Assembly: GCA_949358305.1 (NCBI GenBank)
Contig: OX442315.1
Span: 558,001-622,000 of the forward strand
DNA from: Strigamia acuminata
Lineage: Eukaryota > Arthropoda > Chilopoda > Geophilomorpha > Linotaeniidae
DNA: 64,000 nt
Direction: 5' to 3'
Of this stretch, positions 23,601 to 58,118 are shown in pieces. Made by a program: the position numbers and the translations under genes. Every line of letters begins with the position of its first letter. Position 1 is the first letter of the stretch. The notes under the pieces were generated by a model. The model saw nothing but the letters and a program-made list of their open reading frames with translations, made no database searches and was not told where the DNA came from.

Positions 23601-24324
23601 AGGAACACCACCGGGTTCACCACCACGTTTTGTGAATGCTCGTCGAGGCTCTCGAGGGAATGCACCTCAAGCCCATCCAGCAGCACAGCATGGCCCACCT
23701 CCAACTGGAGCTGCAACTGCGTATAAATGGCGTTACGTTGGAGGCGATTCAGTGTGTAGACACTGGAAAAGAGAGGAACATTTGCGCAAAGTACAGGAAC
23801 CTGGCAAATTAAAAACAGATGTTTATTATTTCCCAGAACCAGGACTCCGACTACGTTCCAGAGGTGACGTTGAGGAATTCTGTCATATGAATAACATTCC
23901 TTATGATCCCGAATTATTTTATTTTGGCAACATGGAATACGAATTAGAGGATCTTCCATTACCTCTTCCTAGAGTACACCTGTGTCGTCGTGATCCCACT
24001 AGTTACGCAGAGGCTGTGAGATTTCCGGATGCGACCAAATGGCAAGAAGCCATTAATGAAGAGTTGGACACTTTTGCAAAAAGAGGAGTCTATGAAGAAG
24101 TCCCGAAACCGGAAAACACGACGATATTAGGATGCAAATGGCTCTTCAAACTGAAGGAAGATGCTTTAGGCAAGCCAGCAAGATATCGCGCCAGATTAGT
24201 GGCACAGGGTTTTCGTCAGACGTTAGGAGTAGACTATGATGAGGTATTCAGCCCTGTTGTCAACTTTGTATTGATACGCCTATTCTTCTGCCTATTAGTA
24301 GTCCTCAAAGGGTGGAAGGACGCG
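20686..24324 (+). CDS. gag-pol: CopC gag-pol, 5' segment (interrupted by CopD)
   Basis: Starts MSKSADGNPG, with gag (GNYKLWQRSM, YLDLLPREYSQ), zinc knuckle CFDCQEFGHYANKC, protease DCGATDHV, integrase HHCC and DDE (LHMDVWGA, RTDRGGEF, NGTAERINR), and the start of reverse transcriptase up to GWKDA. At GAC GCG the CopD LTR begins. Removing CopD joins GCG to CAC TTA GAT at 30876 in frame, giving the conserved DAHLDVKCAYLYG. The combined frame is about 1,612 residues with no other break seen, so CopC was probably active until CopD landed in it. Confidence 0.95.
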
Positions 24325-24808
24325 TGTTGGGTCAAAGCAGTTTTCATTTCATGTAGTTAACGTCGCACCTTTTCCGGTTAAGTGCGATAAAGGCGGAATT
24401 CGTGTCGCATTGTTTAATGTCCCGAAATCGAGAGCCAACTGCTTTGGATTGTTTCAATACATGCTTAGCACTTCAGTTGGCTCATGTTTCACAATGGATT
24501 TCGAGTTGTCGTCTGCTATGATTTAGTTTATCTATTATTTCCCCCAGTGCATTATCCAGTGTTAATGCTGGCTTTGAGTTATCTTTACTTTGGTTATGTA
24601 AAGAACAAATCAACCTTTCCATCAGGATGATTTGTTCTACTTTTAGATCGAGGGCAAATAGCCTCGACACCTGTACATATTCACTTGCTCACCTGTTCTT
24701 GCCTGAATAAAGATGGCCGACGCGTTTTGTGCGGTTTCAGGCACAAAATGACTTTTGTTTCGTCTCCAGTTCCTTTCCCGGCGTTGACAACTTCACTTAT
24801 CATCGTCA
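24325..24808 (+). repeat. CopD 5' LTR
   Basis: TGTTGGGTCAAAG … CATCGTCA, 484 bp. Contains AATAAAGATGGCCGAC near 24706, combining a polyadenylation-like hexamer with the AAGATGGC motif, followed by the stem TTTTGTGC/GCACAAAA. Confidence 0.96.
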
Positions 24809-25908
24809 GTGGTAGCAGAGGATGGTTGATGGCCGAATCGTGAAGTTTTCCAGCGGATTTCATAACGAAATCGACGCCGGACACGTCAATTTGGGCGGAA
24901 CCGTATCCGCGCTTTGACGCGACGAGCGAACGTCGTATTTACGTTCACATCGCCGATTCTGTGTTCCAACGAGTGTTTGGGCGTTGGAAAGGACATTTAC
25001 GAACAGTAAGGAATTTATTTCGCATATTAACTGTATTTTTGGCTCATTTCAAGGCGAAAATGGCCACCCGACGAGCTTCACTGCCGACCATTTCCAAGAT
25101 GGCGGCCCCCAGTGCGAGGCGAGTGTAAGCCGTGTTTTGGGCTGTTTCTTCACGTCGTGGGAGTTTCCAGGACAGGAAAACACAGCGTGGCGACTAGTAA
25201 CCGTCGTGGGAAACGTTTGGAGCGTCGGGAAATTTATTTTGAAGCGGAATTTTGGCGAAACGAACGGGACGGACATTTTCGAAGCGAGTTACGTGTGCGC
25301 TGCATCGTACGAGACGAGCACGCGCAAACGACGTTTATTGTCGGGATCAAGAGCCACTATTTGCACGTACGAGTGCAATAGTGAAGACCAGGAAGTTGGT
25401 GGAACCAGAATACATGCTAAATTCGTATTCTGGGCGGGTTAGTGCATACACGCACGCCCGTTTGCTACGTTGGAGCACCGTACGTCGTCGGTGGATCGCC
25501 GTTGGAATTTTGGCGACGAATTTGTCCCGCCAACAACGGAAAACAACGTGCCACCTTCACAGCGTATTATTTATTGCATTTTCGGGGTCGAAATTCTTTG
25601 TATAAATTTAAGTTTTTGCTTTTGGGACCTTTTGTTTGTTTGGCACCCTTTAGGCATTCGCCTAGTGTCATCCTATTCTTGGCCAGGCTTGCTCGAAGCA
25701 AGGGGGCGATCCTGCGACCCCAGGTGTGTCGGACGGAAGCCCTTGTAGCGACTGGTCAAGTTAGTTGTGCTCACTTATTGAGCTGTACCCCGGGAGGTAG
25801 TGTATTGCATTCGCCTTCATTTTGGTGGGAAAGTGTATTTGTTTGTGTGCAAAGTGCTACAAATTGGTGAATTTTGTGTTTTGTGCGGCATTTTCTCCAA
25901 CAGTCGAG
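24809..25908 (+). promoter_or_regulatory. CopD leader: primer site and structured domain
   Basis: TGGTAGCAGAGGATGG at 24810-24825 matches the initiator tRNA-Met 3' end. Another AAGATGGCGGC motif occurs near 25095. The structured domain is closed by CTTGGCCAG (25678-25686) with CTGGTCAAG (25752-25760, one G-U pair). A second hairpin, GCTCA-CTTAT-TGAGC, follows at 25769-25783. Confidence 0.72.
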
Positions 25909-28900
25909 ATGGCGCTCCCGAGATTTGAGCGAGCTCAACTGCGACGGCAGTTTCTCGATTTAAAAATGAATGATAACGAGACAATGCGACAGTTTTTGGA
26001 TCGAGTGGACCAGAAAGCAGTCGAGGTTAACGCAGCAGGCCTGGAATTGACTCCAATTTTCGTCATTTTCCAGTATATGGATGGTGTAGGGCCTGAATAC
26101 GAGCCTATGAAGGCGAGAATTGATGATTGGCCGCAGGAGGACATTAATCTGGAAAGGATTCGCCAGGAATTCTTAATGCAATATGACAGGTTGCATCCCC
26201 CACCTGTCCAATTAATGGACACCTCATCGGACACAGATTTCTCAAGTGGAGATGAACGAGATGAGGACCGTGGATTGGGGGCTTCGTGTGTGCAGCAACC
26301 ATTGGCACACTACGCAGCAATGCAATGGAAAATTGTCAAATCACCTAACGTGATGTGTTATAATTGCGGCGGTTCGGGTCATTTCTCGAGAGAATGCCCC
26401 TCGCAAAAGAAAACAGGACAGAATCCTCAGTCGTCCAACGCTGGACCAACATCTCAATTTAGAGGACAACCACGTGGGAAAAATCGTGGAAAAGGAGGAC
26501 GTGGTGGGCGCAAAGCCAACTTAGTCGACAATTGGATTGACGACCCAGACTCTCTCTACATGGAAGTGGAGGAGCCACCGCCTCCTGTATCGTCATTTTT
26601 GTCAAATGGCCCAGTAGACACCGCTTGGTACGTCGATACCGGTGCTACTGACCATTTTGCCTTTTGCAAAGAGTGGTTTGCAAACTTTAAGCCTCTCAAT
26701 TACACAGTGCAGTTAGGGGAAGGGACCTCTAAAATAGAAGGAATTGGATCTGTGGAGTTAATTTCCACATATGGCAACAGGAGTAGAGTTGTTACTTTGA
26801 ACAACGTCTATTATGCTCCGAATTTTCGGAAGAATCTTATCTCTCTCGGGCGCACTGATGAGGCTGGCTTACGCACTTACGTTGCAGACGGCAAAATGAC
26901 TTTATTTCGGAAAAAGATTGAAGACCCATCGTTAACAGCTGTACGACTCAGCAATCGCTTGTATAAAGTTAATGGACATGTGTCTGTCACCTCTGTAAAT
27001 GCAACTGCCATCCCTGCGCAGAAGGAGGCAGTTGGCATAACTAATTGTGTAAAACAAACTGTATTAACCATGCCTAAAGTTAAGTGTGAACTAACCACTT
27101 CTAATGTGCAATCGAATGGGAAAACAATTGTTGCAACAAATGGCGCAGCGAATAATGCGAGCAATGCGAACAATGCGCGCACGTTTAGCAATGTGGTACA
27201 GGGGGTTAATCAGAATGGAGAGAATCAGTGTAAATCGACTTTAGTTGACCCAATTAAAACAGCTTTAACGGCTAATAATGATACTAATGGGAAGAAATTA
27301 GACAATGATAAAGCAATACCGATGGATTTTTGGCATGGCAGAATGGGCCACCTAAACTCAAAGGGCATTGTGATGATGCAAAAATCCACAGAAATTTTTG
27401 GCGTTAAATTAAGCAATGAGTTGGCTTCTCCTTGTGATGCGTGCAATAGGGCCAAGCGGGTTAGAGCAACCTTTTCTCCAATAGCAGAGATCAAATCCAA
27501 GGGAATTTTAGACTTAATTCATATGGATCTTTGGGGGCCCGCATCATGCAAATCCTTAGGGGGGGCTGAGTATTACCTCATTATTGTGGACGACCACTCT
27601 AGATATATGTGGATCAGTTTTCTAAAGCATAAAAGTGAAGCTCTCGCCCATTTTAAAGTATGGCAGGCAGAAGTCGAGCGTGCCACTTCTAGAAAAGTCA
27701 AAACGATCCGCACCGATAGGGGGGGTGAGTTTGTGTCCAAAGAATGGGATAATTATGCTAAATCTTGCGGAATCAAGTGTGAACGGACCAACGCCTACAG
27801 CCCCGAGATGAATTCGGTCGCGGAGCGATCGAATCGCACCATCATAGAGGGGGTGCGAGCTATGGAATTGGAAAATGGGTTTCCACACTTCTTATGGGCT
27901 GAGTTGGCAAATACCATTGTGTATTTGAAAAATAGATACCCTCACTCGAGTTTACAAGGACGGACTCCTTATAATGTTTTCTTTGGCCGACGTATGTCAG
28001 TGCGACATTTGCGCTGTATTGGGTTGAAAGTGTATGTGCCCATCCCAGCGCAAACTAGGAAAAGTAAATTAGACAGTAGAGCTTGGTCGGGGGCCCTAAT
28101 TGGTTATGCAATAACCACAGCTGGATACAGAATCTGGGACCCACACAAGAACAAAGTCTTTGCATCTAAACATGTAAAAATTGATGAGAATCAATATTGG
28201 TACGAGGGAACACAAACAGTTTCAAAAGGATTGGGAAGTGTTAAGGCTAAGAGGGGGTTTGGATCTGATGATTATATTCATCTAATTAGCGAATCCGAAG
28301 CAGAAGAGGAGGAAATTCCCCAAAGTCCCCCTGTGTCGACAACACAACAAACTGTTGAACCTCCTACGCAGCAGACTATTCCTGCAGCTACGACGGAGCC
28401 AGAGGATGAGGCGTCTACGTCTCAACCTGCTCCATTACCCCAATTAGACCCTAATCTACCAGAGGATGTTGCTCACACTGCAGGAGATGCTACTCCAAGT
28501 GAAGGCAGTGACGATGATGCCAGATATGAAGAGGCAGTGGCACAGTCTCCTAATGTAAGGGGCAGACATACTGGGGCGGTTGGGGGAGTTGAATTGCAAC
28601 AAATTGATATCACGAAATGGAAACGAGTAGAATATATTAGGAAATCCGGAGCACAAGCCGGACATGTTTTCATTCACTACATAACACCGGGTAGAGACCG
28701 AATAAGAAGTCGTATAGACGTAGTGAGATGGTGTGAGGACGAGGGTTTCGAGTACGAGGCGGGGCTCTTCGATTTTAAGACGAAGACACAACCTCTACCA
28801 TTTGCGGGGTTTTGCAATTTAGAGCCAAACACTTATGAGGAGGCCATGGCTGATGTTAGTCGCCAAGAGTGGGGCAAAGCCATGAACGAGGAAATTTCTA

Positions 28901-30360
28901 TTTTTGACGAACGGGAAGTTTACACCGAAGTGGACAGTATTCCCGAAAAGGCCACGTTGCTAGGCAACAAGTGGATTTATAAAATTAAGCGCGATCATAC
29001 GGGGAAAGTAACGAGGCACCGTGCCAGGCTTGTTGCGCAAGGCTTCAAGCAAAAGCCGGGCATAGACTTCAAAGAAGTCTTTTCACCCGTCGTGAACTTT
29101 GTCATGATACTTGTCTTTTTCTGCACATTAGTAGTGCTTAACCATTGGACAGATACGCACATAGATATTAAAGCCGCGTATCTGTATGGTGACTTAGATG
29201 AGCCCCAATTTATGTCGATCCCAAAGGGGTATCAAACCAAGGAGAACCGGGGAAAGTTTTGGAGGTTGAATAAAGCGTTATACGGCCTCCATCAGTCTGG
29301 CCGAATGTGGTTTCAGAAGCTTTACGAAAACCTTCTCCTGATGGGTTTTGGACCAGTACCCGGGTTGAATTGCGTTTATGTGTTGGACCGCGACGCTGTT
29401 CTCGTCGTGTACGTCGATGATATTGTTTTGTTCGCCAGGGACAAATATACTGAACAATTGGTGTTGGGTTGGATTAGCAACGTTTTTGAAATGGTGAATC
29501 TCGGTCCCGTACATATGTTGTTAGGGGTCGAATTTGACAGAGGGGGTGGCGAGATTAAAATACACCAGCGGACATACATTTCAAAACTCTGTGAATTGTT
29601 CAAGGTTGATGCCAACCATCGCATCCGTGTTCCGGGGACTGTAGGGACAATGATCCAGGGTGTACGAGAGAATGACGTAATTGACACAGCCTTCCCATAT
29701 AGATCACTGGTGGGAAGCCTATTATTTCTGGCCGCGAGAACAAGACCGGACATCTTGTTCTCAGTTATTGTCATGTCCCAGTACAATGAGGTTCATTCTA
29801 CTAAGCATGTTGAAATGCTCCTCCAGATCCTAAGGTATTTGAGAAACACTCAAGATCATTGTATCAACCTAAGTCGTTGCGATAATCCCAATTTGACGGT
29901 GTATACCGATGCGTCTTATGCGACGGACTTAGACAAAAGGAAAAGTTTTGGAGGGCATGTTATCTTCTTGGGTGGAGTGCCTGTGTTTTGGGCATGTAGC
30001 AAGCAGAAGGCTACGAGCTTGTCCATAATGGAGAGCGAATTTGTCGCTATAGTGGACGGTGTCCGTGAGATCACGTGGCTTAAGCGATTGTATGAAATAG
30101 ATGTTATTTCCAGTCTCTTTGGGAACGTCAAGCCGTTTGTCTGTGCTGACAGCACCGCTGCGATACAATACGCGAAGAATCGCGTGGAAAATAGGTCGAA
30201 CAAGCACATCGAAGTAAAGTTCCATTTTCTGCGCGATCTTTATGAAGCTGGCCTGTTTGATATTCATCATGTCAGTGGGAAGCTGAACATCGCAGACATT
30301 TTGACCAAGTGGGTTTCCCGCCCACGTCTTGACGCATTATGCGATCACATTTTTGATTGA
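25909..30360 (+). CDS. gag-pol: CopD gag-pol with shortened gag
   Basis: I choose the ATG in MALPRFERAQL; an in-frame ATG at 25822 adds hydrophobic leader-derived residues. Relative to the other elements the first ~85 gag residues (the GNYxxW region) are missing; the frame enters gag at the block equivalent to SSRARRAAM. The rest is complete: zinc knuckle CYNCGGSGHFSREC, protease DTGATDHF, integrase (WHGRMGHLN, LIHMDLWGP, RTDRGGEF, VAERSNRT), RT (YLYGDLDEP, YVDDIV) and RNase H (YTDASYA, IMESEFVAIVD, NIADILTKWV). No stop or shift was seen. Near-identical LTRs show recent transposition despite the short gag. Confidence 0.93.
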   Translation: MALPRFERAQLRRQFLDLKMNDNETMRQFLDRVDQKAVEVNAAGLELTPIFVIFQYMDGVGPEYEPMKARIDDWPQEDINLERIRQEFLMQYDRLHPPPVQLMDTSSDTDFSSGDERDEDRGLGASCVQQPLAHYAAMQWKIVKSPNVMCYNCGGSGHFSRECPSQKKTGQNPQSSNAGPTSQFRGQPRGKNRGKGGRGGRKANLVDNWIDDPDSLYMEVEEPPPPVSSFLSNGPVDTAWYVDTGATDHFAFCKEWFANFKPLNYTVQLGEGTSKIEGIGSVELISTYGNRSRVVTLNNVYYAPNFRKNLISLGRTDEAGLRTYVADGKMTLFRKKIEDPSLTAVRLSNRLYKVNGHVSVTSVNATAIPAQKEAVGITNCVKQTVLTMPKVKCELTTSNVQSNGKTIVATNGAANNASNANNARTFSNVVQGVNQNGENQCKSTLVDPIKTALTANNDTNGKKLDNDKAIPMDFWHGRMGHLNSKGIVMMQKSTEIFGVKLSNELASPCDACNRAKRVRATFSPIAEIKSKGILDLIHMDLWGPASCKSLGGAEYYLIIVDDHSRYMWISFLKHKSEALAHFKVWQAEVERATSRKVKTIRTDRGGEFVSKEWDNYAKSCGIKCERTNAYSPEMNSVAERSNRTIIEGVRAMELENGFPHFLWAELANTIVYLKNRYPHSSLQGRTPYNVFFGRRMSVRHLRCIGLKVYVPIPAQTRKSKLDSRAWSGALIGYAITTAGYRIWDPHKNKVFASKHVKIDENQYWYEGTQTVSKGLGSVKAKRGFGSDDYIHLISESEAEEEEIPQSPPVSTTQQTVEPPTQQTIPAATTEPEDEASTSQPAPLPQLDPNLPEDVAHTAGDATPSEGSDDDARYEEAVAQSPNVRGRHTGAVGGVELQQIDITKWKRVEYIRKSGAQAGHVFIHYITPGRDRIRSRIDVVRWCEDEGFEYEAGLFDFKTKTQPLPFAGFCNLEPNTYEEAMADVSRQEWGKAMNEEISIFDEREVYTEVDSIPEKATLLGNKWIYKIKRDHTGKVTRHRARLVAQGFKQKPGIDFKEVFSPVVNFVMILVFFCTLVVLNHWTDTHIDIKAAYLYGDLDEPQFMSIPKGYQTKENRGKFWRLNKALYGLHQSGRMWFQKLYENLLLMGFGPVPGLNCVYVLDRDAVLVVYVDDIVLFARDKYTEQLVLGWISNVFEMVNLGPVHMLLGVEFDRGGGEIKIHQRTYISKLCELFKVDANHRIRVPGTVGTMIQGVRENDVIDTAFPYRSLVGSLLFLAARTRPDILFSVIVMSQYNEVHSTKHVEMLLQILRYLRNTQDHCINLSRCDNPNLTVYTDASYATDLDKRKSFGGHVIFLGGVPVFWACSKQKATSLSIMESEFVAIVDGVREITWLKRLYEIDVISSLFGNVKPFVCADSTAAIQYAKNRVENRSNKHIEVKFHFLRDLYEAGLFDIHHVSGKLNIADILTKWVSRPRLDALCDHIFD

Positions 30361-30386: not shown

Positions 30387-30870
30387 TGTTGGGTCAAAGC
30401 AGTTTTCATTTCACGTAGTTAACGTCGCACCTTTTCCGGTTAAGTGCGATAAAGGCGGAATTCGTGTCGCATTGTTTAATGTCCCGAAATCGAGAGCCAA
30501 CTGCTTTGGATTGTTTCAATACATGCTTAGCACTTCAGTTGGCTCATGTTTCACAATGGATTTCGAGTTGTCGTCTGCTATGATTTAGTTTATCTATTAT
30601 TTCCCCCAGTGCATTATCCAGTGTTAATGCTGGCTTTGAGTTATCTTTACTTTGGTTATGTAAAGAACAAATCAACCTTTCCATCAGGATGATTTGTTCT
30701 ACTTTTAGATCGAGGGCAAATAGCCTCGACACCTGTACATATTCACTTGCTCACCTGTTCTTGCCTGAATAAAGATGGCCGACGCGTTTTGTGCGGTTTC
30801 AGGCACAAAATGACTTTTGTTTCGTCTCCAGTTCCTTTCCCGGCGTTGACAACTTCACTTATCATCGTCA
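30387..30870 (+). repeat. CopD 3' LTR
   Basis: 484 bp, identical to 24325-24808 except for one base; followed by the ACGCG duplication and the resumed CopC frame. Confidence 0.97.
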
Positions 30871-32283: not shown

Positions 32284-32753
32284 TGTTGTTTATCGATGCC
32301 AAACAGTCCTCCGTACTTGTTTTGCGCATTTCTTAATGTATTACTGCATTATGCAGCCTAGTGTATTTATTAGGATTTATTTCATTATTTAACATTGGGC
32401 ATAATGCTGCCTGTATCATGTTAGTATTAGTTTACCTTTTCCAACACCAGATGGTGTCACTTGTATTATTTTCACAATCACAATGGCCGCTTGCACGCCA
32501 GCAAGCACTCATGTATTTTCTCCACCTAAATGGATCACATTATGTAAGCATTTTCGTTTTTATTAAACATTTAGTTTATTTTTACATTGTGTTTGTCACT
32601 TATGAGCACTTTAGAGTGCAGTGACTTTATTTTCCACCTTTTTCAAGCGCTGGAGGTGCGCGCACGTCATTGCGCTCATGTTAGCCGTGTTTCGGCATTT
32701 AATCTCGCTTCCACACACAGTATTTCATACTGTGAGCGCACTCCTCTGCTACA
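32284..32753 (+). repeat. CopC 3' LTR
   Basis: 470 bp, matching 19341-19810 apart from about four substitutions (for example TATCGATG against TATCAATG). Followed by the duplicated ATTTA. Confidence 0.96.
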
Positions 32754-32758
32754 ATTTA

Positions 32759-39778: not shown

Positions 39779-40830
39779 TGACGTATGGGAAAAAAGGAAA
39801 AAATGAATTTTCACGAGAAAAAATGAAAAAAAAATGAATTTTTACGAGAAAAAATGAAAAAAAAAATGCATTTTCAACTAAGAAAATGTGTTTTATCGTG
39901 AAAAAATGAATTTTCACGAGAAAAAATGAAAAAAAAAATGCATTTTTAACTAAGAAAATGTGTTTTAATTGAAAAAATGAATTTTCACGAGAAAAAGTTT
40001 AAAAAAAAGCATTTTCAACAGAAAAAATGTGAAAAAATGAATTTTCACAAAAAAAAAAAAAAAAAAATAAATTTTCAACTGAAAAAATGTGTTTTTAAGT
40101 GAAAAAATGAATTTTCACAAGAAATAATTTAAAAAAAATGCATTTTCAACTGAGAAAATGTGAAAAAATGAATTTTCACGAGAAAAAAAGAAAAAAAAAT
40201 AAATTTTTACGAGAAAAAAAGAAAAAAAAATGAATTTTCAACTGAAAAAATGTGTTTTTAAGTGAAAAAATGAATTTTCACGAGAAAAAATAAAAAAAAA
40301 AATGCATTTTTAACTGAAAAAATGTGAAAAAATGAATTTTCACGAGAAAAAAAGAAAAAAAAATGCATTTTCAACTGAAAAAATAAAAAAAAAAATGCAT
40401 TTTCAACTGAAAAAATGTGAAAAAATGAATTTTCACGAGAAAAAAGTTAAAAAAAAATGCATTTTTAACTGAAAAAATGAAGTTGACGAGAAAAAAATTT
40501 TAAAAAAATGCATTTTCAACTGAAAAAATGAATTTTCACGAGAAAAAATGAAAAAAAAATGAAAAAAAAATGCATTTTCAACTGAAAAAATGAATTTTCA
40601 CGAGAAAAAATGAAAAAAAAATGAAAAAAAAATGCATTTTCAACTGACAAAATGTGAAAAAATGAATTTTCACGAGAAAAAAAGAAAAAAAAATGCATTT
40701 TAAAATTCATTTTTTCACATTTTTTCTCGTAAAAATTCATTTTTTCACATTTTTTCAGTTGAAAATGCATTTTTTATTTATTTTTTCAGTTGACAATGCA
40801 TTTTTTTTTCTTTTTTTCTCGTGTTAATCT
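39779..40830. repeat. AT-rich minisatellite that reverses orientation
   Basis: Irregular tandem array built from modules AATTTTCACGAGAAAAAA, AAAAAATGCATTTTCAACTG and GAAAAAATGTG. At about 40703 the array flips and the same modules run as their reverse complements (TTCAGTTGAAAATGCATTTT) to about 40830. The two arms can therefore form a long hairpin. Open frames on the minus strand (Phe/Lys/His repeats) are a by-product of the repeat. Confidence 0.92.
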
Positions 40831-41902
40831 TTCGATTTTTAAGGAAATTAAATTAGGCTTGAAAATACGATGAAGAAAGCGACGTTGTACGAGTTTTATT
40901 TATTATACGGTATGCTCGTTTATTTGTGTGGATCATCATTCTAGACCATTCAAATCAAGATATACATATATATTTCTACACTCGCTGCTCGATTTGATGA
41001 CAATTTATTCACAAGTGAGTTTGCACGAGCTTTATTTTATTTTGCTGCAATTTGTCTGGACATTTAAATCGAATTTGAAATTAATCATCGATTTTGGCAT
41101 ATTTCATCAGACAGACAGACGTAGGACACATTTTGACACACATCACGATAGGTATTTGAGCACAACAGTTTACTTGTAAGTTTAATCACGTTTAATCACA
41201 TTTATTTATTCAAAATATAAGCCACGAAATTAAATTGAATGAAATGAGAATTAAATGAACTTAAATATCCCCATATTTCCCTGTATTTCACAACATGGAT
41301 TCATTTAGCCATGACACGTTAGTTATTTGTTAGAAGTAACAATTCGTTGAATTGGATTTTGCAAAATTTGAAAATTTGAAAATTTCACCAACCGTTGCTG
41401 TTTCTTTATTTCCCGTTTATTTCCCGTTGTAATAACATAACAAACACGTAGAACTACTGCTCCATTGGATCCATCGAAATGAATTGAAACATTATCTAAT
41501 TTTATTTCATTTTATTTTATTACCTTGTTACATCCAACACACGACAAAGTAGCAAATAATTATTATCCGACTTAGATCGAGAGAGAGAGAAGCTAGCTCT
41601 TTGTCCGTTGGCATCGCGTCGGTGAATGGCACAGTCCTGCCATTATGCTCCTTTGCTCCCTATTCCGAACTAAATCACAACTCGAAACGAACAACCATTG
41701 CTTTATGAACCGCCATTGAACAAGCAAAACAGCAAATTTTATCTCTGAAAAAGTAGTAGGTGATTTATTCATTTGGTTTTTCAGCAAATTTCATTACACT
41801 TGCTTATTTTTATTCATTTTTAGGATGGAAGACGAAATGAAATGGTTGGAGTTGGAAGAAACCGAATGCAAGTGACAAATTGGATAAATCGATGTTCAAA
41901 TG
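40831..41902. other. Intergenic, no recognised feature
   Basis: AT-rich unique sequence up to the GypB LTR. Short ORFs only; a GAGA run lies near 41580. Confidence 0.5.
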
Positions 41903-43123
41903 TGTGGTGGCCTGTGGTCACCAGGGCAGGTGAAAACAGGAGTAACATTCACAGAGTTGATCTGAAGTTAATATTATTTTAGTATTTTATTATTTTAGAA
42001 AACTGAGACAATAAGTTCTTGTCTCGGGCTGGTTGCCAGGGTAACCAGACAAACAGCTGAGGGGTTGGCAGGAAATGCTTCCTGTCAACCAGGAAGAAAA
42101 TACAGATTTCTTCAGTCTAATACAAAAACCTTTGCTGAACAACACTGAAAATAATTACTCCTGGATTTCTACTGTCAAAACCGGATTAATTTGTGCCTTC
42201 AACCGAGGATTGGACTCATTCTTGTGATACAACATTATTGTGTCACGGGAAATTCATCTTGCCGTCAAGACATTGACGGAGGGATTCATGCAACAGTCGA
42301 GCCATTCAAACTACGTCGCGGACGCCATTTGAACCACTCGACGATCGTAACCAAGCCATTCCAACTACGTCGCCGACGCCATTGGAACCACTTGGAAGAA
42401 TAGAGCGAGCCATTCCGACTACGACAGAGTCGCCATTGGAACTACTCGTGAGGAGAGGGCCATTCGGACTACGATATCATCGCCATCCGAACTACCCGGG
42501 GAAGAAGTCAAGTTAATCCGAACTACGGTTCTACCGCCATTTGGATTAACACGGTGCAGAAGCAACGCTGCTCGAACTACGACTCGGTCGCCATTCGAGC
42601 AAGCGTGTAGAAGAACCGAAATTGATCGGTCAGAGATTGAAGAAACTGCGATTGAGCAGCCACAACGAGAGTCATCAGTTGCTGCTGCGGAGAATCGGGA
42701 AAACTGTAAGTGAAGAATACGTTATTCGGACGAAGCAGTACGAAAACGTCGCGTCGACGGGACGAACGGAGCCGGAGACGCCATTTTTATTTCTATTTTC
42801 CATTTTCATTAATAATTCGTTAATTTCTAGTCATTATGTATAATTTTAGAGTTTAATCATTGTAAATCGTTTTTATTAGAGAGAGTTTATTCAAGATTAG
42901 AATAAATAGCATGTGTGTTTTTTAAGTAATAAGTTTGTTTTATTCATGTTGATTTCCTCAATCGCGTATTGAGTAAATCAATTGTTGTGTTAGTAAGTTT
43001 AGTCAGTTGGAAGTATTAGTTAATTATTAAAATATAAGACCCGTCGGGGCATTGAGTAATTTCCACAGCTTATTTTTGATAATTTGAGTGAGGTTTTATT
43101 AAGAATAGGCCGGGATTACTACA
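41903..43123 (+). repeat. GypB 5' LTR (about 1.2 kb)
   Basis: Ends TGTGGTGGCC … GATTACTACA, comparable to the GypA LTR start TGTGGTGACC. Hairpins occur at 42005-42025 (GAGACAA/TTGTCTC), 42029-42048 (CTGGTT/AACCAG) and 42063-42090 (12-bp stem), then the six-unit array at 42305-42600. A splice-donor-like GTAAGTG is at 42706 and AATAAA near 42901. Only one copy is visible; the boundaries rest on termini and primer site. Confidence 0.75.
42305..42600 (+). repeat. Six-unit array of covarying double-stem hairpins
   Basis: Each unit reads outer stem - CTA - CGNN - three-base loop - NNCG - CCA - outer stem. Inner stems start at 42314, 42368, 42422, 42472, 42526 and 42580 (spacing 54, 54, 50, 54, 54). 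Inner pairs: CGTC/GACG, CGTC/GACG, CGAC/GTCG, CGAT/ATCG, CGGT/ACCG, CGAC/GTCG. Outer pairs: TTCAAA/TTTGAA, TTCCAA/TTGGAA, TTCCGA/TTGGAA (one G-U), TTCGGA/TCCGAA, GTTAATCCGAA/TTTGGATTAAC (one G-U), GCTCGAA/TTCGAGC. Sequence differs while pairing is kept, which indicates selection on RNA structure. No ORF crosses the array. Confidence 0.88.
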
Positions 43124-43233: not shown

Positions 43234-44973
43234 TTGCTAACCATGCCTTGGCCACGAGAGCAACAGCGAGGACAGGACGGCACGCGACGTATTAAGACGA
43301 GAGGCGGACGTAATGACAGGCGAGCGAGATCGCTGTCGCCTTCCGACCATGAAGAAGGCACCACTCGTCAATTTAGCCAAGACTTTTGGCTCAAGCCTGA
43401 CAGTCCCGATTCGCAGAAGTCTACGCCGGTACACAACGCACCGCCTAGTGTAAAATCAACGCCGCGCTCGAAAATGGATATTTCGTTGTTACCTCGTGAT
43501 ACACTTATAGCCGTCGCTACACGACAACGTCGTCTATTACGCGGTTACCAAGCAGCAGCAGCCCAGAAAGCAGCTGACAGCGCACAATCGTCGGGCGAGA
43601 ATTCTCCGACTCGGCGTAAATTGAAGGAAGTAAGACAACAGATGCAGGACATTCTGCAAGAAGCTGAAGACAGCCTAGAACGGCAACGCATTCGATATCA
43701 GCAAGGCGGTCCAATTTCCGACGATGAAGTTGACGCAATCGCCGCAGCATCGGCGGACCGCAGCCGACGGTTAGCAGAAGCCCAGGAAGAGGAATTTCAG
43801 TTAGTAAAGCGTCTGCGATTGGAGGAACTTCAAGCCCAGCAAGCTAAACATGAGTACGAACTCCTCAAACAAACTTTGGATGAGGAACGGGGACTTGAGA
43901 AACAGCAAATTGCGGAGGCAGAGGCGCATCTCCAATCGGAACGGCAAGCTGAAAAGGATCATCTCGAGGCTACGAGAGCCCGCTTAGAAGCGGAACGCCT
44001 GGCGTTGACGTCAAAACTGACCGAGGTGGAAGCGAATGCAAACCAAGAGACCGAGTACCTTTGCCAAGAAGCGTTACGTGCGCAGGAAGAGGCTCATAGA
44101 GCAAAAATGGCGCTAGAAGACGCACAATATTTGGCGCGTGTGCAATACCCGGTTGCGCAGCCTGACGCAGCGAATCGGGACCCACCAGAAGTAGTATTGG
44201 TTTCAGAGACTGTATCTAACCCTCTGAAAAGGGGGAGAGAAGGTGGGGATGAGCGTGGCGACAGAAAACGATCGTCACCTCCAATGCAGAACAGAAAAGT
44301 GTTTGACGTAATTGATCAACGCAATCAACAGCATGGAGCTGCCAATCGATTTGACCAACCAAAGAGTAACACACTAGGACCGATGGACATTCCAAAATGG
44401 AAAAATTTGCCGAGAACAGTAGGCAAAGATGGCAAATCACACCCGACAGAACCGTTACATCCAAGCGAAACATTCCAAACCGAGTGTGTCACAATTCCTG
44501 CGTCAAAACGAGAGGATAGACGTTCAGTTTATTCACCAAGTGGGCCAACTGATTATTATAATAAGTTGAAAAAAGTTGCTGATTTCCAAGAACGTTGGAT
44601 AAATGAAATCGAGAATTGGAAAGCTGAAAGATATCATGACTCCTCAGCCAATAAAGATACTGGCAACAGCGACAGAGGTGAAAGAGGGAGAAATGAACAT
44701 CACACATCTTGGCACGACCAAGAGGTTCCAACTCATGAATTTTCTAGAGATAATTCACGCTCTGCAAGACAAAACCCACAGTCAGGTAATCCTGCGCAGC
44801 AAGCTGAATATGAGCCAACAGGTCAGAAAAGCCTGGGTGCAGGAAGTGCTAGTTATGAGAACACTAGCCGAGGTAATGATAGTCAGGGACGCGGCCAAAG
44901 TCGCCCCGATGGAGAGCGCCAGCAAAGTAACGAAAACCGTTACGAATATCGCCCAGGCGACGGAGAACGTTAC
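43234..44973 (+). CDS. gag: GypB gag segment 1 (N-terminal, long coiled coil)
   Basis: Starts MPWPREQQRGQD. The first ~100 residues are basic and disordered. From about residue 120 to 300 lies a Glu/Gln/Ala/Arg-rich heptad-like region (LEEAQEEE-type composition), very probably a coiled coil. A polar linker follows, ending …GDGERY at the CopF target site GTTAC (44969-44973). The 53 codons after 44973 that stay open belong to the CopF LTR. Continuing after CopF, at GGC 51901, the frame is preserved. Confidence 0.88.
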
Positions 44974-45455
44974 TGTAGCAGAGTAGGGCGCAGAATATCG
45001 GTGAATTATCACCGGGAAGCGTGGAAAAACGGGGCCGTGCTGCGCGCACGGACGTGGGTGATACGACGCGTATCGTTAGCGAGACGGCGCGTGGCTTATG
45101 GCCACTTATAGCGCACTAAACTAGCACACAATGTGCTTTAAAGCAAAGGCAATGATAACAAAATATAAAACACTTTACTAAAATAGGAATACATTACATA
45201 AATGGTGTAAAAACAATCAAGCAGCACACAGCCGTGTGCTGCGCCATCTTGGATTTGGATAACAGTGATGAGGGCACCCTGGTGCCGGAAATTAGCATTA
45301 ATAAAAGATAAATCATTGGGTGGAAGAACAAATCATATCAAAACAAGACAAGAGTATGGAATTACATACGAGACATCGCTAAACTAACAATAATATCGAA
45401 ATCAAAAGTATATAAATAAATACATCAATAAAAAAACATGGTCTTTAGACCAACA
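44974..45455 (-). repeat. CopF 3' LTR
   Basis: 482 bp, minus sense TGTTGGTCTAAAGACC … CTCTGCTACA. It carries CCAAGATGGCGC and the flanking stems GGCACC/GGTGCC and GCAGCACAC/GTGTGCTGC. Confidence 0.97.
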
Positions 45456-51412: not shown

Positions 51413-51895
51413 TGTAGCAGAGTAGGGCGCAGAATATCGGTGAATTATCACCGGGAAGCGTGGAAAAACGGGGCCGTGCTGCGCGCACGGACGTGGGTGA
51501 TACGACGCGTATCGTTAGCGAGACGGCGCGTGGCTTATGGCCACTTATAGCGCACTAAACTACCACACAATGTGCTTTAAAGCAAAGGCAATGATAACAA
51601 AATATAAAACACTTTACTAAAATAGGAATACATTACATAAATGGTGTGAAAAACAATCAAGCAGCACACAGCCGTGTGCTGCGCCATCTTGGATTTGGAT
51701 AACAGTGATGAGGGCACCCTGGTGCCGGAAATTAGCATTAATAAAAGATAAATCATTGGGGGGAAGAACAAATCATATCAAAACAAGACAAGAGTATGGA
51801 ATTACATACGAGACATCGCTAAACTAACAATAATATCGAAATCAAAAGTATATAAATAAATACATCGATAAAAAAACATGGTCTTTAGACCAACA
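51413..51895 (-). repeat. CopF 5' LTR
   Basis: 483 bp, nearly identical to 44974-45455. The inner end is followed (minus sense) by TTGGTAGCTACATTGGTA, so the primer site is abnormal: only TGGTAGC matches the initiator tRNA before divergence. Confidence 0.96.
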
Positions 51896-51900
51896 GTTAC

Positions 51901-53079
51901 GGCGGCAAACAACGTCAAAAAGACAAAGATCGCCACAACGAAGAACAACGTCGCAGAAACGAACAATATCAGCGAGACGAAGCTCGTCGTAGAGACGATG
52001 AACGTCGACAAGACGAAAATTGCCGAAATGAAGAGCAGCGTCAAAGAGTTGAGTATCGTCGAAATGAAGAGCAACGCCAACGCGACGAATTTTGCCGCGA
52101 AGAAGAGCGACGCCGGAGAAATGATGAGGCTCGCCAGCAAGACGCTCACCGAGGTGACGAACGTTACCAGAGAGACGATTCTCGTCAAAAAGATGAATAT
52201 CGCCATGGTAACGACCCGCGTCGCAAAGAGGAATATCGTCGCAACGACGAACAACGTCAGAGAGACGAAAACCGTAATGACGATTACTCCCGATGGAGTA
52301 AAGATTATACTGGTCGACAAGAAAGGAAGTACTCGCAGTCTGAACACTTCCGCCACAATGACGCAAGATATGCGGGCCAAACCGGAAATCGACAGGACAG
52401 ACCTGATAATTCTCAATATAGAGAACCGCCACCTTCTGCCAGTATGTACGGTCCAACAGACAACACCATTAAGTTGCAGGAGTACATTGAACAGCAGATA
52501 GATAAACGCTTGGCAAAGATTCCATCCAGATCACAAGAGATGGAAGAGGTACTGCAAAAGCAGATCCGGAAATATTGCGTAGCAAATTGGACACATGTCT
52601 TTGTTAACGCATCCCAAATAAAATGGGACCGCATAACACCCGATACATTTGATGGTAGTTGGTCAGTAGGAACGAAATTCCTAGATGAAGTGATGCAGAT
52701 AGTAAGATGCCATGAAGCGGACCCCTATGACACTCTTAAGAGAATAATCCCAAAGATGTTGACGGGGGGAGCCGCGAACTGGTTCTATGAACACGCGTTC
52801 ACACACTGGGATGCATTTGTTCACGAGTTTATGAAAGAGTATGGTGAGTCACATGCGACTTTGGTGGATCACTGGGACAATTTGCAACAGATGTTAGGTG
52901 AGGACCTTCGGTCATACTTACGCAGGACTGAAGAACTGATAAGTCATCTTCCAAACAAAGTATGCAACTTTGCCGCTGATCGTCAATTTCGCAGAGGCCT
53001 GACGGAATTTTCGGAGAAGGTGCTGACAATGGTGAACGCACCGATGGCCAGCTCGTTTGACAGGTTAGCGCAGTTTATG
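51901..53079 (+). CDS. gag: GypB gag segment 2 (Arg/Asp/Glu repeats and capsid)
   Basis: Resumes in frame directly after the second GTTAC copy. The first ~150 codons encode an Arg/Asp/Glu/Gln/Asn-rich low-complexity region with imperfect repeats such as RRNEEQRQR and YRRNDEQRQRDE. Then comes the capsid-type region (FDGSWSVGTKFLDEVM, GGAANWFYEH, FRRGLTEFSEKV) shared with GypA. It is cut after QFM by the 314-bp insert and resumes at 53403. The antisense of the repeat region gives a long hydrophobic ORF that I regard as a shadow. Confidence 0.88.
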
Positions 53080-53393
53080 TTAATTTGTGGTCCAAAGTAG
53101 TGTGGATTAACTTATTTAGCAGTGGTGCGAGAAACATCTATTGTGAAAGCAAGCACAAACACCATCTTCACCTGGTTGAAGAGAAACATCAAGTGTGATT
53201 TATTGTCCAGTCATGTGACTGGGAGAAAGTAAACAACGCCCCCTTTGGGCAGAATACATAAGTTATTTGTGACAAATACTGCAGCCAATCGTGCAGCTAA
53301 GATAGTGTACAAATTAACAAGTATACAATCTAAAGAACAACATCGCTTGATGATACGAAATAATACAGACAGTTATAACACATAAAAGCCTAA
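53080..53393. mobile_element. 314-bp nonautonomous insert with 9-bp target duplication
   Basis: CAGTTTATG occurs at 53071-53079 and again at 53394-53402. Removing one copy plus 53080-53393 joins …LAQFM to RDNQMYIED in frame. The insert is noncoding, starts TTAATTTGTGGTCC and ends AAAGCCTAA, with only weak terminal inversion (TTA/TAA). A 9-bp duplication would fit MULE- or Merlin-like DNA transposons or a short retroposon; no tRNA-like promoter was recognised. Confidence 0.8.
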
Positions 53394-53402
53394 CAGTTTA
53401 TG

Positions 53403-54125
53403 CGCGATAACCAAATGTATATCGAAGACAGATATATAAAATATTTGCCACCCGATGAGCAAAGAGCTCGGGATGAATTGCAACGGAAACGATCCGATCA
53501 TGCAAGAGGCAACCCTAAAATGATGCAGCCACAGCCATATATCTCGTCACAACGTAAAGAGAGTAGCTTTAACCGGAATAGAGATATGGGTCAGACACCT
53601 TACCCACCGCCAAAAATTCCAATGCGTTCTTCGGCAAAGCTAGTGTCGGAAGTAGACGACATGGGAGAATTTACTGGCAATCAAATGTTGTCAATGGACC
53701 TCACCGACCAACACATTGAGTCGATAGCGGAGGCAGTCAGCACCATGTACGCACGCAACAACCCAACAGTTGCAAAGTACAAACCGCCAATGCAACCAAA
53801 GGCGACTAGTCAAACGACACCTAAGTCTGAAGCGACAGAAAGTTCTGCGCCAGAGTTGAAAACGTGTTCGATTGAATTGACAAAAAAGACTCCGCTTGAG
53901 GAGATAGCGCAAACCGGTCAAGCTTCGACTTCCACTGTAAAATTGGAAGGAAACGTAGAAGCGTCAACTCAACCCAGGTTGACTCCGGAGACAGCCCCTT
54001 GTCACAATTGCGGCCAATTAGGCCATTGGTCCAGGAGCTGCCCCCAGCCCAAAAAACAAGCGTCAAAGCCAAGCTACCAGCGGCTAATTGACGCCATAAC
54101 CGAAGCCGTTCAAAAAAACATGTGA
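53403..54125 (+). CDS. gag: GypB gag segment 3 (nucleocapsid end)
   Basis: C-terminal gag, with a proline/threonine-rich linker and the zinc knuckle CHNCGQLGHWSRSC at about 54001-54042. It ends in AVQKNM and a TGA at 54123-54125. The three gag segments together make about 1,213 residues, very long for a gypsy gag (usually 300-500), owing to the coiled coil and charged repeats. Confidence 0.88.
   Translation, partial: RDNQMYIEDRYIKYLPPDEQRARDELQRKRSDHARGNPKMMQPQPYISSQRKESSFNRNRDMGQTPYPPPKIPMRSSAKLVSEVDDMGEFTGNQMLSMDLTDQHIESIAEAVSTMYARNNPTVAKYKPPMQPKATSQTTPKSEATESSAPELKTCSIELTKKTPLEEIAQTGQASTSTVKLEGNVEASTQPRLTPETAPCHNCGQLGHWSRSCPQPKKQASKPSYQRLIDAITEAVQKNM
54113..54119 (+). promoter_or_regulatory. 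GypB gag-pol -1 frameshift heptamer A AAA AAC
   Basis: Gag codons read CAA AAA AAC ATG TGA, so the heptamer is in phase and ends four bases before the stop codon. A -1 slip continues CAT GTG AGC into the protease/pol frame, which opens at the same point. Confidence 0.8.
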
Positions 54126-57100
54126 GCGCGGGTTCAGAAGATTCACTGAAACCCGCGCCAGCAAATGACTCGGAAATTGCGCGAAAAGGAGAACTGGAAA
54201 AACCAACAGCTCCAGAACTTACTACAACAGTCCCAGAACCTACTCCAACTCCAGAACCAACAACGACTTCAGAAACAAAAACTGCTCCTCCGATAAGGAA
54301 AGGATCAGTAATTTACGAAATTAGTAAAGGACAGATTATTGGTATGAGATTCCCACCTGTAGAAATGGCAGCCTTAGCTAAAATAGAAGAAATCGTAGGA
54401 ATTCCTGCCACCCCAGGATCTACGGAAGCTGTTGTCATTGCGGAATCTACGGAAGCTGCGGGAGCAGTAAACATTGCGGAAGCAGCAAATACTGACGAAG
54501 TTGCATCAACGTCGGAAGCTTGTGATTTAAAACCCCAAGCACTGTCACTTGAAAACATGGAACTTACGCCTCCAGAGGCGCAAGGAAAAACTGACAAGAA
54601 TTATGACGTTCAAAAAGATGCAAATGGGACAGTCCTATTTCCAACGACTGACTTGTCGGAAATTCCCAAAACAGAGGAAATTACGCAAATAGATGCGGCA
54701 TATTTCACGGCAGAAATAGATCAAGCTCTGAAAAACGTCGGACTTGATGATGAGAATGAAGCCACTCTTTTTTGGGCAAACGTGAGAAGCACGTACGAGA
54801 ATGAGCCGTCTGAGGCTGCGTGGATGGTTGACACCCCCACAGAACCCGTAGAATGGGATCCATTCCTCAAGGAATTACCAATAATCGAACCAGAAGAAAA
54901 ACCTAGAATTCGAGTCTTCAGAGCTCTTATTCCAGATCAGGACATGTTGAGTGGAATGACTACCATGGAAATTTCCACGGCAAGTGGAACAATAATGGGT
55001 ACACTTGATTCCGGCGCAAACCGAAGTTGTATCGCCTTGCCGTTGGTCCAAGATATGGAAATGGAAGATCAGATTTCCAGAGTGGGCCAAACATGGCCAT
55101 TAATACGGCCGACAAGAAGGTACAACCGATAGGGTCACTACGATTAACCTTTCGCTGGACACACGGGATAATGATCCATAACTTCCTCGTCTTGCCACAT
55201 GAGATGAGATTCATGCTAATGGGCAATGACATAATGAAACGGATGCGGGTCCAACCTAACCCACTAAATGGTAAATGGAATTTTGTGCAGACACTTGAAG
55301 TTCCTGCGCCATATATCCATCAAGATGTACTAGACAGACTAGAAAAGAAAATGGAGGAGCCTGAGTCCTCATGGAACACCTTTGCAAAGCGATCGAGCTT
55401 CTGTGCTTTTGAAGCCCGGCTAAAAGTGGGTAATGGTGTCCATAATTTGGTCGAAGAGGCCAAGCTCCAACTAACGGAAGCCGTGCAACTTGAGCATGTT
55501 CTTAAAAAGTATGAGCATATCTTAACAAAGACGCCTGGGAGGACGCACGTGTTGCACCACACTATAGATCTCGACACGGATAAGCCGATAAGGGTCCCTT
55601 ACAAAAGCTGGAACCTTCAAAAAAGAGAAATCCTCTCGAAACTATGCCAGGAAATGCTAGATAAGGGCTACGTGTCCAAAGCGGAAGGAGATTACGGAGC
55701 TCGCATTGTGCTAGTCATGAAACCAGGGTCAGAACCGAGGCTTTGCATAGACTATAGGCCAATTAACGAGCATACACTATATGATCCTCCGCAGATGCCT
55801 ACGATCGACGAGATCCTACGCGAACTAGGCGAGTTTAAGTGGGTCACGACAATTGACCTCACTAAGGGATATTGGCAGATTGAGCTGCGGCCCGAAGACC
55901 GACCAAAAACGGCCTTCTGGAGCCCGCTCGGTCGGCTGATGTTCAATGTAATGCGTTTTGGATTGGTGAACGCTCCAACAACCTTCCAAAGGCTAATCGA
56001 GAAAGTTCTAGGTGATGCCCACAGGAGATATGCCTGGGCGTACCTTGACGATATAGTTATCGTCTCGGCCACCTATGAAGAACATCTCCGGCACGTGGAG
56101 TCAGTTTTAGATAAACTTGACAAGGCGAACCTCCACATAAATCCAGAAAAATCTAAATTTTGCCGGAAAGAGTTAAAATTCCTTGGCTATACGCTAGGAA
56201 TAAATGGACTTAGTGTGGACCCGAAGAAAGTGGCGGCCATTACACAGTTTCCAGCCCCAAAAGACCTGAAAGGCTTACAACGCTTTATGGGTATGGTAAA
56301 TTTCTTCCATCGCCTATTGAAGGATTTATCTGCTGTTTCTGAGCCGTTACGCCCACTCTTAAAAAAGGGCATAGATTTCGTATGGACTGACGACCATCAA
56401 GCGGCTTTTGAAAAAGTGAAAAGGTTATTGGCTGACGCTGTCACATTGAAGTTGCCTAACCTGAACAAGCCGTTCATAGTCCACACCGATGCCAGTTATC
56501 AGGGGTTAGGAGCTGCCCTGATGCAGCAACACGAGATTGATGGTCAAACCGTTGAGGTTCCGTGCATGTATATTAGTCGTAGCTTGCAACAAGCCGAGCT
56601 AAATTATAGTGCAACGGATTTAGAATGTCTCGCCGTGATCTGGGCCCTGCGCAAGTTTAGGCCGTACTTGGAATGCACCAAGTTTACGGTACAAACAGAT
56701 CATCAGGCGTTGAAGTGGCTCATGGGACTCGACGAGCCAACGGGACGTTTGGCCCGTTGGCAGATGGAACTCATGGGATATGACTTCAAAATTCATTACA
56801 TCAAAGGCCCACTGAACGTATTGGCTGATGCGTTATCCAGAGATCCAGTCCAACTGATCTGTGATGAGGAAGATACCGGGGAAGCTGACGGATTTATGTC
56901 ATATTGCCCGACTAACCAGCAGAAATGGACGTTCAATAACTGGAACCAGCTGCCAGTACCGGAAAAACGGCCAATCGAAGACGAAAAATTCGTATCGTAT
57001 TGGTGCAATGCATATAATTTAACGACAGATGAGTCGGAAGAGGCGCAAGAATGTCAAGGCGAAGAGCCATGGCCATATGAGCCAGTGTCAAACAATGAAA

Positions 57101-57556
57101 TGATCAAGACATTCATTGGCAAGGTCACGTCACAATTGGACTGTAAACCGCCAACGCGCCAGGAATTTGTAGATCACCAACAGAAGGATAAACACTGTCA
57201 TGGTTTGAAAACTTATTTGGAAACCGAACAATTTCCACCATGGGTGACTATGCGACTCCAGAGACGAAATTATAAGAAATTAGCATCATGTCACCTTATT
57301 GAAGACAACTTACTGTTGAAGTATAGTCCAACCATTTCAGATGAGTTCTCAGATGACAATCGAGCACTGAAAGTGGTAGTTCCGAAAACATTACGATTCC
57401 GAGTACTGTGGCTCAGTCATGGTCACCCATTGGCCAGCCACTGTGGCATCAGTCGGACACTATACCGGATGCGACGTATCTACTCATGGGAGGGCATGAA
57501 ACCAGACGTAACAAGGTTTATCAAGCACTGCACAAGGTGCCAAGCGTGCAAGCCCC
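54119..57556 (+). pseudogene. pol: GypB pol with one-base frameshift, truncated by CopG
   Basis: A threonine/proline/glutamate-rich N-terminal spacer of ~290 residues precedes the protease motif TLDSGANRSC near 55010. Comparison with GypA shows a one-base loss in the AAA run at 55089-55091: the first frame closes at 55132 and the frame starting near 55094 (NMAINTADKK) carries on. RT follows (YLDDIV near 56040), then RNase H with an intact HTDASYQGLG, and the integrase HHCC domain (HGHPLASHCGI … HCTRCQACKP). CopG begins right after this, so the DDE core is missing from the window. Confidence 0.9.
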
Positions 57557-58118
57557 TGTTGGTCTAAGAACCACTCATGTTGTCGATATCAAATGTTTAT
57601 TTACTATATGTTTTGTGTTCAAACACATTGTATTGATATTTGATCATTTATTTACTGTTTTCTCTATTTGGATTTAATTTCTGCTGTCCAGTATGTAATT
57701 CCATACTTTGCTTATGTTTTACTTAGATGATTTGTTCTTTAATTTAAAATTTAATGTTAATAACTGTCACCAGAGTGCTGTGACACTCTTATCTCGAATC
57801 CAAGATGGCAGCGCACACAGGTGTGTGCACTTTTACATCTTTTCACCTTTGGAAATCCATTTATGTAAGATATGGTTTACTTTTCATTAAACTTTTATGT
57901 TTTTAAGTGTTTACCTTCACTTTAGAGCACCTTCAGTGCTATTTAAGCGCATATAAGCGACCATAAGTCGCGCGCTCGCTCGAATCGCATCACGCGCTCG
58001 CTCGAATCGCATCACGCGATTCTGTTATCGGAATTAACCGTCGCGCATTTGCGACACGCTTTATTTCACGCTTCCACATCGGTTCATTTGCCGATTATTT
58101 GCGCACCACTCTCCTACA
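57557..58118 (+). repeat. CopG 5' LTR (562 bp)
   Basis: TGTTGGTCTAAGAACC … CTCTCCTACA. It includes the stem AGAGTG/CACTCT, then CCAAGATGGCAGC at 57800-57812, then GCACACA-GG-TGTGTGC. Near 57980-58015 there is a short tandem duplication of CGCGCTCGCTCGAATCGCAT. Confidence 0.9.

Follow-up and report, generated by a model that had tools for sequence, protein, structure and literature searches.

Repeated two-fold hairpins in the presumed RNA leader of Ty3/gypsy-type LTR elements of Strigamia acuminata

One long terminal repeat (LTR) of Strigamia acuminata carries a row of hairpins whose stems differ from unit to unit, while the letters of their internal loops hardly change. Is this array kept for its RNA structure and, if so, what would read it? 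The window, by which we mean the whole stretch of 64,000 nucleotides that was analysed, is set in a genome of 237.5 Mb. The LTR was searched as DNA against the whole genome, which gave 54 matches.

The element and its six hairpins

The element is described by the following features.

41902..43123, + strand: 5' LTR (TG...CA), 1,222 bp, with whole-length matches to other loci
42113..42118, + strand: CAGTCT, core of the initiator-like motif TCAGTCT, presumed transcription start
42706..42711, + strand: GTAAGT, 5' splice donor-like site, presumed end of the AUG-poor leader
42901..42906, + strand: AATAAA, putative polyadenylation signal
43243..44970, + strand: first long ORF 3' of the LTR, presumed N-terminal part of gag, interrupted by a nested Copia element
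51896..57750, + strand: presumed continuation of the element beyond the nested Copia, with Retrotrans_gag, CCHC zinc knuckle, RT-RNase H and integrase zinc domain

The element was of the Ty3/gypsy type, with paired LTRs, gag, reverse transcriptase (RT), RNase H and integrase. For this element type, the integrase was detected by its core as well as its zinc domain, alongside RT and RNase H. Ty3 was the best solved relative for the RT part, and at least 120 protein relatives were 29–44% identical over part of the query. The ORF at 43243..44970 had no Pfam match, and a gag search found no relative of it. The internal part of the element was split by nested Copia elements, and we infer that this ORF and the stretch 51896..57750 belong to one element across the nested Copia.

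The partner of the window LTR was located at G000:C3:627996-629218. LTR partners were 99.6–100% identical in all 12 presumed pairs compared, the window's own pair included. The families were therefore active recently. At G000:C1:46004616-46031877, three successive LTRs, 13.7 and 12.4 kb apart and 99.6–100% identical, looked like a tandem of two elements with a common LTR.

The array consisted of six hairpins with CTA/CCA 3×3 loops on the + strand of the window LTR (42296–42605), at spacings of 54, 54, 50, 54 and 54 nt. These are designated type B.

42296..42342, + strand: Unit 1, GUCGAG-CCA-UUCAAA-CUA-CGUC-GCG-GACG-CCA-UUUGAA-CCA-CUCGAC
42351..42395, + strand: Unit 2, 3×3 loops CCA/CCA and CUA/CCA
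42405..42449, + strand: Unit 3, 3×3 loops CCA/CUA and CUA/CCA, one G·U in the outer stem
42457..42497, + strand: Unit 4, 3×3 loops CCA/CUA and CUA/CCA
42512..42550, + strand: Unit 5, lone CUA/CCA loop, outer stem of 11 bp
42565..42605, + strand: Unit 6, lone CUA/CCA loop, long outer stem with one bulge

The initial annotation had described six repeated double-stem hairpins at about 54-nt spacing, and all six were found, on the + strand. The structure started at 42296, not at 42305 as given there. In Units 1–4, a second 3×3 loop (CCA/CCA or CCA/CTA) was present below the outer stem, followed by 3–6 pairs, so that the unit described earlier was part of a larger one. In Units 5 and 6, pairing was continuous where the lower loop would be, with the bulge in Unit 6. 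The CTA/CCA loop had been called asymmetric; its two sides were indeed unequal in sequence, but they were equal in length (3×3). It had also been called constant, which held in the window LTR but not at other loci, where CCA/CCA and rarer forms occurred. The apical loops of the six units were 3 nt long and variable.

The exact layout, with 6/6 outer pairs, CTA, 4/4 inner pairs, a 3-nt loop and CCA, occurred six times in the array, and nowhere else on either strand of the window. Dinucleotide shuffling of the array, repeated 5,000 times, never produced it. The minimum-energy fold of 42290–42610 produced all six hairpins (z −3.4; 0/100 shuffles as stable), and when the whole leader of the window copy was folded, 36 of the 54 unit pairs counted were still formed. 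A small extra hairpin, ACCGA-AAUUGA-UCGGU, was seen in the sequence at 42615..42630 (+ strand), with similar sequence at other loci.

Rfam gave no match in the window at the gathering score or in the LTR at E ≤ 5, in agreement with the earlier remark that no named motif was known with such a layout. The hammerhead and retrozyme models were among those without a match in window or LTR, and the array was likewise rightly described as not hammerhead-like. No description of such an array was found in the searched text of open-licence PMC papers.

Pairing and symmetry across LTR loci

Eighteen LTR-like loci were viewed, the window copy included. Thirteen had the array (window, L012, L013, L017, L018, L020, L057, L058, L059, L061, L062, L064 and L065), one had a single decayed unit (L069), and four had no array half-site (L066, L068, L070 and L071). 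CAGTCT was missing as well from the L066 and L068 stretches, which are perhaps not complete LTRs. No array was seen in the L067 stretch. In L070 (G000:C1:643000-645200), hairpins AGCTAGAT..ATCTAGCT were located at about 870–940 of the reverse complement, roughly where the array would stand.

The majority half-site pattern on both strands of the unit was GCCAUUNNAACYAC. The full unit is made of two copies of it, mutually paired with two-fold symmetry, and one motif, in opposed orientations, makes both of its loops. In the upper loop, the 5' side across loci was C (31/31), U or C, and A (29/31), and the 3' side was C (26/28), C (26/28) and A (28/28). The lower loop was less strictly kept (for example, C 21/31 and A 27/31 on the 5' side; C 23/28 and A 18/28 on the 3' side). 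The linkers between the hairpins were purine-rich, with purine fractions of 0.68–0.88 in 15 loci versus 0.47 in the hairpin cores; 14 of the 15 were at 0.74–0.88, and L065 was at 0.68.

The stems varied. The inner stem of Unit 4 was CGAT/ATCG, CGGT/ACCG or CGGT/GCCG, and that of Unit 5 was CGGT/ACCG or CGGC/GCCG. The last unit had at several loci a 9-bp inner stem, CGGCGAAAT/ATTTCGCCG or CGACGAAAC/GTTTCGTCG. An uncompensated change, the mismatch CGAG/ATCG, was present in Unit 4 of L013.

The inner and outer stems had been said to change with both sides together. This was borne out in the six window units, in which 60/60 core stem cells (10 pairs × 6 units) were paired (column-shuffle mean 83.9%; 0/500 as high) and both sides changed in 6 of the 10 pairs (3/500 column shuffles as high). 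Pair types were not exceptional in number (47/500).

For 34 distinct 41-nt units, 91.6% of 442 cells were paired, and none of 500 shuffles was as high. The covariation score was 0.484, versus 0.213 after shuffling (0/500). The both-side-changed pairs (10 versus 7.9 shuffled; 11/500) and the pair types (22 versus 20.9 shuffled; 185/500) were weaker measures. Sliding the partners out of register brought the pairing down to 25–48%.

The same picture was tested on trees with 43 distinct unit cores, which had 95.6% of stem cells paired, 6 pair-keeping both-side branch changes and 11 branch breaks. Under a uniform null, these three values were matched by 0, 0 and 0 of 2,000 tree simulations, and under a column-rate null by 0, 1 and 11. 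Under the strictest null, in which branch and column were kept and the new letter was redrawn, they were matched by 7, 79 and 336 of 2,000, so that the breaks were not unusually few. The earlier proposal of selection on the structure was upheld in that the other copies and LTR families mostly kept the pairing, despite the breaks in the 11 branches and in Unit 4 of L013.

Per-pair covariation of the R-scape kind, which had been suggested as a check, was not significant against a tree null. None of the 10 structural and none of the 243 other column pairs reached E<0.05; the test drew on only 67 substitutions in short, related sequences, and the same 26 columns also supplied its tree. Under the first two nulls, the lowest E values of structural pairs were 0.32 and 0.08, and the two top-ranked of the 253 column pairs were structural. 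Since the per-pair tests were not significant, we relied on the aggregate statistics. The aggregate evidence for pairing was good, and the per-pair evidence was weak.

The arms might also have been matched without selection, if a palindromic repeat derived from TTCGAA had undergone template switching, or correction of one arm by the other, while it was reverse-transcribed or replicated. L018 had tandem half-sites with the self-complementary core TTCGAA, possibly the ancestral state, and these would make a plausible ancestor in which every copy could pair with every other. Such correction, however, should also have healed the 3×3 mismatches, which persist. It should have yielded Watson–Crick pairs and not an excess of G·U (see below), and the array was retained in recently active copies. 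We regard this as the least probable of the explanations considered here. The tests support an array kept by selection on pairing and on nearly fixed unpaired CYA letters.

The conserved letters could instead be DNA sites. Units 1–4 had GCCATT or GCCATC on both arms, and GCCATT words are presumably YY1/Pho-like motifs, which would form a site array in transcribed promoter DNA. In Drosophila gypsy, the insulator is made up of repeated Su(Hw) sites, and the present array resembles it as a repeated motif within the 5' transcribed part of a gypsy element. CGCCATT was also found outside the hairpins, at 42779 and similarly placed in other LTRs of the set. Su(Hw) sites are bound by protein as DNA, however, whereas the evidence here favoured RNA pairing. 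Conservation was not confined to the DNA word: the stems covaried, and the ACYAC side was about as well kept as GCCAT. The wobble pairs were biased toward G·U, and matched pairs replaced the lower loop in Units 5 and 6. A DNA-level site array is thus very unlikely.

A model of the hairpin gave 58 matches of at least 29 bits in 13 array-bearing sources among the 21 searched, all on the LTR sense strand, with two to six units per locus in the 13 array loci. Because its training units came from these same loci, the search mainly added units with longer inner stems that were outside the training set. The landmark search was blind to units without CG at the start and end of the inner stem (Unit 1 of L020 and most L018 half-sites). 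Landmark matches with fewer than 4/6 outer pairs, all outside arrays, were left out. Neighbouring units shared half-sites in L057 and L065, so some half-sites were counted twice. The unit at position 1347 of L065 was left out of the tree, per-pair, half-site and branch-wobble, and linker analyses, but kept in the G·U/A·C cell count.

The motif was also sought outside these LTRs. Among the places listed of 147 matches, no use in host genes was seen; four were outside the LTR loci seen, versus 2 reversed-control matches. A search with GCCATTNNAACYACG gave 106 matches versus 9 for the control, but many were scattered GCCATTTAAACCACG that looked like an unrelated repeat, and this candidate was rejected. 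In viral contigs, AACTACGN7CGCCATT was found in at least 120 stretches, with one match each in the 80 listed; we read these single matches as chance. The hairpin model, run on 40 viral stretches picked by the motif, gave a maximum of 26.2 bits, versus 29–60 bits for the LTR units. Two viral-contig stretches, L089 3604-3642 and L098 6976-7014 (both − strand), matched the whole model (26.2 bits, E 3.8e-5), and were probably chance from the motif preselection.

Strand and leader context

Among 36 distinct units, the sense strand had 28 G·U versus 7 A·C stem cells. Branch changes from Watson–Crick pairs went to G·U 18 times and to A·C 5 times (one-sided binomial about 0.005). This bias favoured the sense RNA, although strand-biased mutation would be an alternative source of the G·U excess. 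The antisense fold was the stabler one (z −7.7 versus −3.4 for sense), because the C·A mismatches of the loops turn into G·U. Despite this, function of the antisense strand is less likely, given the wobble bias and the AUG depletion described below, and the sense strand is more likely to be the one that functions. That the array is a selected sense-strand RNA structure we hold with high confidence.

The start-like motif was present in 14/14 array-bearing leaders measured (13 TCAGTCT and one CCAGTCT). GTAAGT was present in 13 of them, and L018 had GTGAGTA. In all 14, the array was located between the start-like and the donor-like motif, as named by their presumed roles. This set of 14, chosen for carrying the array, comprised the 13 array loci and L009; it did not include L014, L019, other near-identical copies, or L060 and L063, the partners of L059 and L062. 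Folding of the whole leaders kept 447 of 540 counted unit pairs, with only 9/36 in L065 and 0/9 in L018.

ATG was scarce between CAGTCT and the donor-like site, with 16 seen versus 115.4 expected in the 14 leaders; the loci are related, and these totals are not independent counts. The window leader (42113–42705) had one, versus about 9 expected. Past the donor-like site, the number was as expected (25 seen versus 26.0 in 13 loci). In the 210 bases upstream of the start motif, 26 were seen versus 51.1 expected, so the depletion was not sharply bounded at the start motif. The AUG depletion suggests a sense 5' leader that is scanned by ribosomes.

The array might serve translation or splicing: the AUG-poor leader exon would tune scanning, and the hairpins would keep the GAAGAAG-type linkers open as splicing-enhancer sites. 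The depletion of AUG from the start-like to the donor-like motif is in line with this, as are the purine-rich linkers, which resemble a known splicing-enhancer motif. On the other hand, stable hairpins usually impede ribosome scanning, and the near-fixed CYA letters and the two-fold symmetry are left unexplained. We consider such control unlikely.

A second repeated hairpin, designated type A, was observed upstream of the array. It consisted of UCUUG, a variable stem of 6–8 bp, a loop, and CGGGA or AGGGA, and its base would contain tandem U·G wobbles.

42220..42250, + strand: type A hairpin 1, UCUUG, 8-bp stem, loop, CGGGA
42257..42284, + strand: type A hairpin 2, UCUUG, 7-bp stem, loop, AGGGA

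Type A hairpins were also present in L057, L065, L069, L070, L071 and others; L069–L071 are without an intact type B array.

Probable protein docking and a possible role in nuclear export

What would read the array? The fixed loop letters, the free stems, the variable 3-nt apical loops, the repetition and the purine-rich linkers together favoured a multivalent protein platform. The most likely reading, to which we assign a probability of roughly 0.4, is a multivalent protein-docking element of the leader with Gag as its putative ligand. Docking of some protein through the CYA loops is itself probable. Gag as this protein is a tentative choice, made by analogy with retroviruses.

As the first exon of the element RNA, the leader would run from about 42114 to the donor-like site (42706). 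The AATAAA at 42901..42906, if used, would place the array within R, and the array would then be present at both ends of the genomic RNA. On each full unit, a protein would meet two like 3×3 loops that face opposite ways. The units, of which the model gives two to six per locus, would form a multivalent docking platform with the purine-rich linkers between them. The element's own Gag might dock there, which would lead to selective packaging and dimerisation of the genomic RNA.

Gag was the first choice because the position, the palindrome-like stems and the purine-rich linkers are reminiscent of the packaging signals of retroviruses such as MPMV. The CCHC zinc knuckle and Retrotrans_gag domain encoded by the element were also counted for Gag. 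In the cited part of the work on the MPMV packaging signal, purine-rich stretches (ssPurines) near a palindromic stem-loop (Pal SL) are probable Gag sites (PMC7674771). The likeness is in a presumed structured 5' leader with palindrome-like stems, purine-rich linkers and an element-encoded zinc knuckle. The present array differs in its repeated like-looped units, its position upstream of the donor-like site, and its 3-nt apical loops in the window. With the array on the 5' side of the presumed donor, spliced RNAs would contain it as well, so that the array alone could not select unspliced genomes. A palindromic apical loop for kissing, as in a retroviral dimerisation site (DIS), was absent from the six window units; their loops are 3 nt and variable, which argues against kissing-loop dimerisation there.

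The strongest rival to docking by Gag is nuclear export like that by the constitutive transport element (CTE) of type D retroviruses, because the CTE is two-fold symmetric and an RNA with a donor must exit unspliced. The opposed loops would bind a dimeric receptor, NXF1:NXT1 or an adaptor of the element, and unspliced RNA would leave the nucleus. In the cited part of its description, the CTE is a two-fold symmetric stem-loop of about 130 nt at the 3' end of the genome, each lobe of which can bind NXF1:NXT1 (PMC4330390). Judged by that part, Units 1–4 are like it in having two-fold symmetric half-sites with opposed internal loops; Units 5 and 6 have one loop. The likeness is one of layout, and several 41–50-nt units in the LTR leader differ from a single 3' element of about 130 nt. 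The donor-like site 3' of the array suggests that export of unspliced RNA may need solving. In Cer1, an LTR element of Caenorhabditis elegans, such export needs the element's own CERV protein, by the cited part of that study (PMC10309623). ORFs without a Pfam match 3' of the integrase ORF would also fit export. An export role appears improbable.

Two such ORFs were observed in L072, at 3521-5269 and 5270-5923 (582 and 217 aa, stop to stop), past the integrase ORF and near the 3' LTR. Neither had a Pfam match, and they are candidates for an env-like or accessory protein.

To our knowledge, cis-acting RNA structures of LTR retrotransposons are little known outside yeast, and we know of no covarying-repeat array in the leaders of Ty1 or Ty3. 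In the parts of the Ty1 and Ty3 literature cited here, a structured 5' RNA region is tied to packaging and dimerisation (PMC5454406, PMC4974528, PMC11381356). The present element shares with these a structured 5' region in the RNA of an LTR retrotransposon. It differs from Ty1, for which these sources describe dimerisation through kissing loops.

A broader proposal is that the array belongs to a new family of retroelement RNA controls, which we put forward with reserve as somewhat less likely than not to hold. A self-pairing 14-nt half-site would give a two-fold hairpin, whose opposed CYA/CYA loops would be the recognition face. Amplification into arrays and compensatory diversification would follow, and a dimeric reader, of the element or the host, would decide on export, packaging or translation. 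The two-fold half-site predicts a dimeric or paired binder. It also predicts that loop mutations kill function and compensated stem mutations do not. This one genome offers the hairpin in dozens of natural variants, spread over many copies that have diverged and were recently active. The rules of recognition (near-fixed CYA loops and free stems) are thus readable from it, and the cognate protein can be sought.

The nested Copia elements of the window were also of note. Three pairs of repeats of 471–484 bp, 99.2–99.8% identical, flanked Copia ORFs, and indicated recent nested insertions.

24325-24808 with 30387-30870: repeat pair 1
44974-45455 with 51413-51895: repeat pair 2
19341-19811 with 32284-32754: repeat pair 3

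Three Copia-type ORFs had a methyl-CpG binding domain (Pfam) between the integrase SH3-like domain and the reverse transcriptase, at 5322-7325 (E 9.8e-9), 20686-24360 (E 2.7e-4, at the cut-off) and 25822-30360 (E 1.1e-6). In the searched text of open-licence papers, no description of this arrangement was found. At 39797-40818 of the window, AAAAAATGAATTTTCACGAG-like units were repeated in a long and degenerate tandem array, in which the strand flips near 40702.
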